64,000 nt of DNA, taken from Acidimicrobium ferrooxidans (lineage in GTDB: Bacteria; Actinomycetota; Geothermincolia; Fen-727; Anoxymicrobiaceae). The DNA lies in contig DYIU01000001.1 of NCBI GenBank assembly GCA_020723485.1, positions 372,001 to 436,000 of the forward strand. The letters are read 5' to 3'. A program made the translations under genes and the position numbers. How positions within the stretch are numbered: the stretch's first letter is position 1; every line of letters begins with the position of its first letter. Shown here piece by piece: positions 41,040 to 43,448 of the stretch. Under the pieces are notes generated by a model that ran no database searches, was not told the origin of the DNA, and saw only the letters and a list, made by a program, of their open reading frames with translations.

Positions 41040-41067
41040 TTGACACAAGCTATATTACAACCATAAT
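41040..41067 (+). promoter_or_regulatory. Promoter of the iron-sulfur/TetR operon
   Basis: TTGACA (41040-41045), a 16-base spacer and CATAAT (41062-41067), ending 37 bases before the start at 41105. It overlaps the 12-bp palindrome at 41062-41073. Confidence 0.5.
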
Positions 41068-41073
41068 ATTATG
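41062..41073. promoter_or_regulatory. 12-bp palindrome on the -10 region, probable operator
   Basis: CATAATATTATG is a perfect palindrome over the -10 box. The downstream TetR gene (42173-42754) is the likely binder. Confidence 0.5.
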
Positions 41074-41104
41074 AACATCATATGTGCCTAGACTGGAGGT
41101 TGAG

Positions 41105-42157
41105 ATGGCTGAGGATGTATACCTGGAACTGGCGAAACACCTGGACGAGGCCTACGCGGGCGCGCCAATGTCGGATACCCTTCTCGAGATACTGGACATC
41201 CTCTACCCCGGCGAAGAAGCCGAAGTGGCGTGCAAGCTCGGCTTCTACGAGAACGTGACGCTGGCCCAGTGCGAGGAGAGGATGCCCGAGAAGGCGGGAA
41301 GGCTCGCAGAGCTGCTCGACTCGATGGCGCACCGCGGAACGGTGTTCACGGCGCAGAAGCCGGGCCAGGAGCGCATCTACCGCCTGCTCCCGAGCGTGGT
41401 GGGGTACGTGGAAGCGCCGTTCCTGTCCGGGGACAGGGAAGACGCGAAGATGCTCGCCCCGCTCTGGAAGAGATACATCGTCGAAGGTTTCGGAGAAGAG
41501 ATGGCCAGGGGCATGCCTCTCATCAGGGTCATCCCCGTCAGCGAATCCCTCGAGGACGAGAGCCAGGTCCTGCCGTTCGACGCCATAAAGGACAAGCTCG
41601 CCGAGGCCTCCTTCATGGCGGTCGGCCACTGCCCTTGCCGCCAGATCGGCACCATGACCGGGGAAGGCTGCGACAGGCCCACCGAGAGGTGCATGCATTT
41701 CGGCGGCCTGGGCCGTTACTTCGTCGAGATGGGCATGGCGAGGCAGATAGACATGGACGAGGCGCTCCAGATACTGGGCAAAGCGACCGATGAGGGCCTG
41801 GTCCACGTCTGCGACAACGTCGAAGGCAGCATCAGGACCATCTGCAACTGCTGCCCGTGCTGCTGCGGCTTCTTCAGGGCCAACAAGGCACTTGGCGTGA
41901 AGACATACATCAGGTCCAACTACGTCGCGACCGTCGATGCCGACAGCTGCACGGCATGCGCCGTCTGCGAGGAGCGCTGCCCCGTCGGCGCCATCACCGT
42001 GGACGAGGTCGCCGTGGTGGACGCCGAGAAGTGTATAGGGTGCGGTGTCTGCACGCCGACCTGCGGAGGCGACGATGCCATCCGCCTGGTCGTGCGCGAG
42101 GAGGTGCAGCCTCCGCCCGACTTCCAGACGTTCGCCGCGGCCCGAATGGCCAAGTAG
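41105..42157 (+). CDS. Cys-rich 4Fe-4S ferredoxin-domain protein
   Basis: 350 aa from ATG 41105 (CTGGAGGTTGAG upstream). Order: N-terminal helical region; a CPCRQ...CDRP...CMHF cysteine group near residues 180-200; ICNCCPCCCGFFR near 250; then two ferredoxin motifs CTACAVC and CIGCGVC with distal Cys. The protein ends LVVREEVQPPPDFQTF. The 897-base partial gene at 1-897 is a paralogue. It may be a redox sensor or a ferredoxin fused to a hydrogenase-like sensor domain; I do not recognise a named family. The TAG stop at 42155-42157 is in frame with the TetR gene that follows. Confidence 0.85.
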   Translation: MAEDVYLELAKHLDEAYAGAPMSDTLLEILDILYPGEEAEVACKLGFYENVTLAQCEERMPEKAGRLAELLDSMAHRGTVFTAQKPGQERIYRLLPSVVGYVEAPFLSGDREDAKMLAPLWKRYIVEGFGEEMARGMPLIRVIPVSESLEDESQVLPFDAIKDKLAEASFMAVGHCPCRQIGTMTGEGCDRPTERCMHFGGLGRYFVEMGMARQIDMDEALQILGKATDEGLVHVCDNVEGSIRTICNCCPCCCGFFRANKALGVKTYIRSNYVATVDADSCTACAVCEERCPVGAITVDEVAVVDAEKCIGCGVCTPTCGGDDAIRLVVREEVQPPPDFQTFAAARMAK

Positions 42158-42172
42158 CGAAAGGGGAGAGCA

Positions 42173-42754
42173 ACGAGCGGCAAGGCACAGAAGAAGGAAC
42201 AGAGCAGGGAGAAGATCCTCCAGTCCGCCGGCGCGCTCATAAAGGAGAAGGGCATCACCGCCACCACGGTCTCGGACGTGATGGACGGGGCGGGGATGAC
42301 CGTGGGCGGTTTCTACGCCCACTTCCCGTCAAAGGACGAGCTGGTGACCGAGAGCATGTCCAGCGCCCTCTGCCAGTCGACGGACACGCTGAAGGCGGCC
42401 GCTGGAGACAGGTCCGGGACCGAATGGCTCAGGGCCGTTTCAAGGAGCTACCTGTCCAGGGCCCACAGGGACAATCCTTCCGCCGGTTGCCCCCTGCCCG
42501 CGGCCGCGGGTGAGCTCGCCAACGCTTCGGAGCAGGTACGGCGCGCCTTCGCCTCCGATGTCGACACCCTGGTGAACGATATCTCCGTCCACGCCGAAGA
42601 GGCGGGATTCCAGCATCCACGCGGGGAGGCTCTCGCGGCCCTGGCGCTCATGATGGGTGGCATGACCCTGGCGCGCGCCCTCAAGGGGACACCGCTTTCC
42701 GACGAGGTACTGAAAGCCTGCCGTGACCACATCGAGAGGTGTCTGGAACAATAG
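42173..42754 (+). CDS. TetR-family regulator with apparent ACG start
   Basis: About 193 aa. The HTH is complete only if reading starts near 42173 (KILQSAGALIKEKGITATTV, then GMTVGGFYAHFPSKDELV). Between the preceding TAG (42155-42157) and the HTH there is no ATG, GTG, TTG or CTG in frame. ACG at 42173 has AGGGGAGAGC just upstream, so it is the best start candidate; the first normal starts (GTG 42278, ATG 42281) would delete part of the HTH. The frame is the same as that of the iron-sulfur gene. It probably controls that operon via the palindrome at 41062-41073. Confidence 0.65.
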   Translation, partial: TSGKAQKKEQSREKILQSAGALIKEKGITATTVSDVMDGAGMTVGGFYAHFPSKDELVTESMSSALCQSTDTLKAAAGDRSGTEWLRAVSRSYLSRAHRDNPSAGCPLPAAAGELANASEQVRRAFASDVDTLVNDISVHAEEAGFQHPRGEALAALALMMGGMTLARALKGTPLSDEVLKACRDHIERCLEQ

Positions 42755-42848: not shown

Positions 42849-43448
42849 CTACTCCCCCCTTCCGAGCACCACATCGAGGTAAGTCCGGACCATGTTCATG
42901 CCCGTGCTCGGGTGGGCTTTCTCCGGGACCATGAACCAGTGCGCCCAAAGACCATCGGTCAGCGCACTGATGGAAACCGCTATCGTCTCCGCTTCTTCAG
43001 GAGTCAGCCTGCCGCTCCGGTCTGCTTCCATGAGAACGTTACTCAAGGCGGCGTAGTAGCGCTCATTTGCCTTTCGCATCGCTTCATGCACATCTTCGTT
43101 GATGCCGGACCAGTAAACCATCGCTATGTAGGCCCTGGTGTAGTCTTCCGAGGGAAGCTCGTCGCTGAAATATATGGCAAGGAGTCTCTCGAGGCGCTCG
43201 TCCGGGTCCTCTATCGCTTCTATCGGCTTGAAGAAGAACTCCTCGTGCATCTCGAGGATCCAGTGGATCAGTTCAAGCGACAACTGCTCCTTGTTCGCGA
43301 AGTAGTGGCTGATGAGGCTGGTCGTCATGTTCGCTTCCCTGGCGATGCTCGCCAGCGTGCAGCCCTCTATGCCTTTCTCGGTCAGGCACCGGTAGAACGC
43401 CTCCAGTATCTGCGGACGCCTCTCTTCGGCCAAGCTCTTCCTGCCCAT
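42849..43448 (-). CDS. TetR-family regulator (BetI-like)
   Basis: 199 aa from ATG 43448 (GGAGGGACTTGA upstream). The HTH is typical (ILEAFYRCLTEKGIEGCTL, then REANMTTSLISHYFANKEQLSL), followed by a helical ligand domain with YFSDELPSEDY and DGLWAHWFMVPEK as in BetI-type members. It converges with the ACG-start TetR gene and lies 88 bases from the TPP-enzyme gene on the same strand. It may bind the inverted repeat at 45356-45375. Confidence 0.9.
   Translation of the reverse strand: MGRKSLAEERRPQILEAFYRCLTEKGIEGCTLASIAREANMTTSLISHYFANKEQLSLELIHWILEMHEEFFFKPIEAIEDPDERLERLLAIYFSDELPSEDYTRAYIAMVYWSGINEDVHEAMRKANERYYAALSNVLMEADRSGRLTPEEAETIAVSISALTDGLWAHWFMVPEKAHPSTGMNMVRTYLDVVLGRGE

Follow-up and report, generated by a model that had tools for sequence, protein, structure and literature searches.

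How can a TetR-family regulator be translated when its reading frame holds no canonical start codon ahead of the HTH, and is the ACG found in its place a true start codon or an error? The question is posed by a two-gene locus in the window, by which we mean the whole stretch of 64,000 nucleotides analysed here, located at contig C3:372001-436000 of a draft 3.36-Mb genome in 11 contigs (G000). The elements of the locus, in window coordinates, are as follows.

41105-42157, plus strand: iron-sulfur protein gene, 350 aa, ATG at 41105, stop codon TAG at 42155-42157, Pfam Fer4.
42158-42754, plus strand: TetR-family open frame after the TAG, 198 aa, closing at TAG 42752-42754.
42173-42754, plus strand: TetR-family regulator gene, 193 codons plus stop, TetR_N and TetR_C_13 type (Pfam).
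42173-42175, plus strand: putative TetR start codon ACG; the same column holds ACG in G005:C88, ATT in G005:C119, ATG in G001 and G022, and TTG in G011.

The upstream product carries two 4Fe-4S motifs at its C-terminus (Pfam Fer4). The downstream product belongs to the TetR family, since its TetR_N HTH (PF00440, residues 20-64 of the 198-aa frame) scores 49.6 bits against a cut-off of 24, and its residues 11-190 align with residues 3-177 of the solved chain 2fd5_A (E 8.4e-31). Direct reading past the TAG at 42155-42157 gives, in the same frame, CGA AAG GGG AGA GCA and then ACG at 42173-42175; the earliest ATG, GTG or TTG in the TetR frame is GTG 42278, which lies within TetR_N, and CTG is absent between the TAG and the HTH. 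The observation of a missing canonical start is correct, and we can confirm the preliminary description both in placing the TetR frame in frame behind the iron-sulfur TAG, with five codons and then ACG 42173, and in finding no ATG, GTG, TTG or CTG before the HTH. A second TetR-family gene, with a BetI-like C-terminal domain, is found at window 42849-43448 on the minus strand, convergent with the ACG-start gene.

Among 31 genomes of the class that were searched, close relatives of this TetR gene occur in 11 genomes at 12 loci, the window included, and a wider sample of 396 genomes from the phylum returned the identical 11 genomes at E 1e-35. At every one of the 12 loci the TetR gene is preceded by an iron-sulfur orthologue, and among ten neighbouring proteins at four loci no conserved neighbourhood was seen beyond this pair. 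Nine of the 12 TetR genes have a canonical start, which is ATG in G001, G017, G018, G022, G023 and G028, TTG in G011 and G020, and GTG in G021; these starts fall precisely on the ACG column in G001, G022 and G011 and at most two codons from it at the remaining canonical loci. Homologues starting further downstream with an intact HTH, which the preliminary description had named as evidence that would overturn its view, are not what the relatives present. The three non-canonical starts come from two genomes only, the window's own and G005, and comprise the ACG of the window, an ACG at G005:C88 and an ATT at the second G005 copy, G005:C119, where two tandem iron-sulfur genes are found. A near-cognate codon occupies the homologous start column of the window's gene, with no canonical start before the conserved domain.

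Could the ACG simply be an ATG changed at 42174 by a sequencing error or a recent mutation, as had been suggested at the outset? ACG is a single base away from ATG and the window stems from a draft genome, but the same ACG, behind the same TAG and the same five-codon gap, is present at G005:C88 in another genus, where the TetR protein is 71% identical to that of the window and 62 of 88 fourfold sites differ, that is, synonymous sites are saturated. Across this divergence the segment TAG CGA AAG GGG A(G/T)A GC(A/G) ACG AGC is identical at 22 of 24 nucleotides, so that gap, ribosome binding site and start codon agree between independent genomes. The comparison thus speaks strongly against an error or recent mutation as the source of the ACG, and we find this explanation hardly credible. 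A near-cognate start is here conserved between species, with ACG in two genera and ATT at a third locus, the nine others being canonical. The two ACG genes possibly go back to a common origin, in which case the evidence from ACG comes from a single lineage, and the clade formed by the three non-canonical genes in the gene tree has weak support (59/22). It should also be mentioned that the iron-sulfur gene at G005:C88 switches reading frame near residue 122, which reflects either an indel or assembly error in the MAG or an upstream gene that is broken, with coupling lost there.

The stretch between the ACG and the first canonical start appears to evolve as coding sequence, since its 35 codons differ from those at G005:C88 at 6, 1 and 21 sites in codon positions 1, 2 and 3, respectively. 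A hexamer coding model, for which 464 kb of the window's genome served as training set, furthermore gives the TetR gene the top coding score before the first canonical start among 430 called genes, and this, together with the recurrence of ACG in another genus, suggests that the missing canonical start is more than chance. A shorter TetR protein from GTG 42278 was considered and rejected, since it would cut the HTH, since all 12 loci code upstream of the GTG position and since nine genes start on the ACG column or at most two codons from it. A start hidden by mRNA structure was likewise discarded, the fold of 81 nucleotides (-12.5 kcal/mol, z 0.66) being unremarkable.

What could bring ribosomes to an ACG is a Shine-Dalgarno (SD) sequence, which the preliminary description had given as AGGGGAG and which is indeed present and longer than stated.

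42160-42167 (approximate bounds), plus strand: extended SD GAAAGGGG, duplex of about -12.0 kcal/mol with CCUCCUUUCU.

The 16S tail CCTCCTTTCT was read in three genomes of the family (G001, G006 and G007) and used here, as neither the window's own assembly nor G005 gave a 16S rRNA match. With the tail sequence CCUCCUUUC the SD can form 8 pairs at about -12.0 kcal/mol, and about 6 nt separate its last paired G from the ACG, a strong SD at proper spacing of the kind seen in infC and sigR. Among the 12 loci, the top three anti-SD duplexes belong to the non-canonical starts (-12.0, -12.0 and -12.9 kcal/mol), the nine canonical ones ranging from -6.2 to -11.8 kcal/mol. This resembles the genome-wide trend, reported in PMC5622118, for stronger SD motifs to accompany non-AUG starts.

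The distance from the iron-sulfur stop to the TetR start is 15 nt in the window and at G005:C88, 24 nt in G018, 33 nt at G005:C119, and 39, 48, 53, 59, 157, 191, 191 and 487 nt at the other eight loci. The three non-canonical genes are accordingly among the four shortest distances, a hint of a link between weak starts and close coupling, though one noticed post hoc and with two of the three loci possibly sharing descent. The preliminary description also raised TAG read-through giving a fusion; a few ribosomes would then insert an amino acid at TAG 42155, and the iron-sulfur/TetR fusion would be the working regulator. At all three non-canonical loci the TetR gene shares the frame of the iron-sulfur gene, with no intervening stop, and six of the 12 loci are in frame by distance, five of these without a stop between. 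The other six are nevertheless out of frame, a fused gene is found at none of the 12, nine relatives have their own canonical TetR start, and at the non-canonical loci the stop is TAG twice and TAA once, with spacers of 5, 5 and 11 codons, so neither frame nor stop context is kept; the G005 ATT copy differs in both stop and spacer. Read-through would, moreover, have no need for an SD conserved at start-codon distance, and we consider it very improbable.

Initiation at the ACG with low yield, also put forward in the preliminary description, is by comparison supported by the ACG and ATT that G005 holds at the same column, and what a low yield might serve is suggested by the sequence upstream of the operon.

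41040-41069, plus strand: sigma-70-like operon promoter, TTGACA, 16 nt, CATAAT (41040-41067), or with 18 nt, TAATAT.
41050-41085, no strand assigned: candidate operator for the TetR protein, with ATAATATTAT-type palindromes that are spaced by about 14 nt and overlap the -10.

In the consensus scan the 16-nt version of the promoter has 11 of 12 matches and the 18-nt version 10 of 12, and the region contains 4 promoter-like sites against a shuffle mean of 0.3. Operator-like ATAATATTAT palindromes occur upstream of the iron-sulfur/TetR pair at all 12 loci, where they overlap the operon promoter, the window's copy being degenerate. A relaxed pattern gave 2 matches against a shuffle mean of 0.00, the pattern having been written after the window site was seen, and the strict pattern, even when up to 2 mismatches were allowed, has no match in the window's genome. 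Away from the pair the motif is rare: that strict scan gave matches in 14 of 29 genomes, of which ten have them near the gene pair (G001, G005, G011, G017, G018, G020, G021, G022, G023 and G028), and the other four (G012, G013, G015 and G016) lack these TetR relatives. As palindromes lie upstream of the pair in the relatives and over the promoter -10, the TetR protein probably represses its own operon. A literature search gave nothing relevant on a published ATAATATTAT operator linked to TetR. A second ATAATATTAT motif pair lies at G018:C8:292-328, away from the iron-sulfur/TetR locus, and possibly marks a further regulon member.

The explanation that we regard as likely is that the TetR protein is translated separately from ACG 42173 at low yield and shuts off its own operon. 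The 8-bp SD match about 6 nt upstream would position the ribosome, and ribosomes that terminate at the iron-sulfur stop codon, 15 nt before the ACG, would probably also reach it by termination-reinitiation. An ACG matches the initiator tRNA at two of its three bases and would in most cases be rejected by IF3, so that little repressor would be made per transcript; its binding to the ATAATATTAT palindromes over the operon promoter would turn off the iron-sulfur gene and the TetR gene alike, and the weak start would thereby serve as a set-point, holding the repressor low in amount compared with the iron-sulfur protein. We infer these steps, from initiation, yield, coupling and IF3 sensitivity to autorepression and selection for low output, from comparison of sequences. 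Given that a related genus keeps the same ACG, the codon probably represents a start kept deliberately at low output, and not a sequencing error.

The ACG may, on the other hand, be a start that is merely tolerated, a nearly neutral product of drift with a strong SD and coupling yielding enough repressor. A few other apparent near-cognate starts in the genome (the ATC of a TMEM175-like gene and the CTG of an ATPase) and the canonical starts of nine relatives would fit this notion, but the ACG has been retained over saturated divergence even though a single transition would restore ATG, and the second G005 copy has a different weak codon, ATT. We consider drift possible, though on balance unlikely, and lean modestly towards a weak start that is selected rather than tolerated. 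Quite unlikely, in our estimate, is the more elaborate notion that the ACG works as a translational rheostat, in which the IF3 level would set the amount of the autorepressor, the ratio of repressor to iron-sulfur protein would track IF3 and ribosome status, and tight coupling from stop to start would have been balanced by two separate weakenings of the start codon, ACG and ATT. In an E. coli reporter library (PMC6925171), ACG gave 0.1-1.5% and ATT 7-22% of the ATG yield, with large context effects; a yield as low as that of ACG might not suffice for a functional repressor.

Autoregulated TetR-family operons are known, and the regulators usually bind an operator near their own operon. The locus resembles them in its TetR_N domain, in a palindromic operator-like motif over its own promoter and in 2fd5_A as closest solved chain; it differs in the start codon and in that the regulator is the second gene, behind an iron-sulfur protein. 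As regards the start codon, the closest tested case is Streptomyces sigR (PMC5472188), which starts at GTC behind AGGAGGTG, is conserved with a GTT variant and repressed by IF3, and the circuit of which is unbalanced when GTC is swapped for a canonical codon. Both are regulator genes in actinobacterial two-gene operons with a very strong ribosome binding site, an expected misannotation and a non-canonical start conserved with one variant (GTC/GTT there, ACG/ATT here). However, sigR is the first gene, encodes a sigma factor and was shown experimentally, whereas the present gene is a downstream TetR repressor with an ACG known from comparison. The same paper describes infC, encoding IF3, with its AUU/AUC start and translational autocontrol; it is likewise a conserved near-cognate start behind a strong SD, but IF3 exerts its control at the start codon of its own gene, and TetR at transcription.

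Gene finders assume ATG, GTG or TTG starts, and such a rule would remove the first 35 residues of the TetR protein, including part of the HTH, or lose the gene. A limited literature search found no description of a natural, conserved bacterial ACG start, and PMC5622118, which reconstructs 61,358 ancestral AUG starts, reports switches to GUG, UUG, CUG and AUU only and none to ACG. If confirmed, the present case would add a codon with a mid-position mismatch to the few genes with a weak start kept by selection, and would suggest start-codon weakness as a means to restrain co-transcribed repressors.

Near-cognate starts seem to occur in the window's genome at a low rate. Genes flagged for coding before the first canonical start number 17 of 430, as against 14 of 356 in G020 of the same class, and a genome-wide relaxed start choice was rejected since the flagged rate is no higher. 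Inspection by eye of 15 of the 17 gave three SD-led near-cognate starts (the TetR ACG, the TMEM175-like ATC and the ATPase CTG) and one ambiguous case, the rest having a usable canonical start or being doubtful. The P-type ATPase gene (C3:260372-262774, minus strand) lacks a canonical start ahead of the conserved N-terminal part and appears to use a CTG behind TAAGGGGGCGC, the same CTG being present in G005 (G005:C101). The ambiguous case (C3:300063-300956, plus strand), presumably a polysaccharide-deacetylase-like lipoprotein, is a frame with a signal peptide and no clear canonical start before it. IF3 is present in the window's genome, and its gene infC (C5:234359-234613, minus strand) offers no canonical codon ahead of its conserved N-terminus, apart from one ATG within that N-terminus, and appears to start at ATA behind the strong SD GGAGG; elsewhere infC appears to start at ATC or ATA in G001 and at ATA in several members of the class. 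In the gene at C3:258061-258801 (plus strand), which we take to encode a TMEM175-like channel, an ATC follows AGGGAGG where most relatives have ATG, and its counterpart in G002 may start at a CTG behind GGAGGT.
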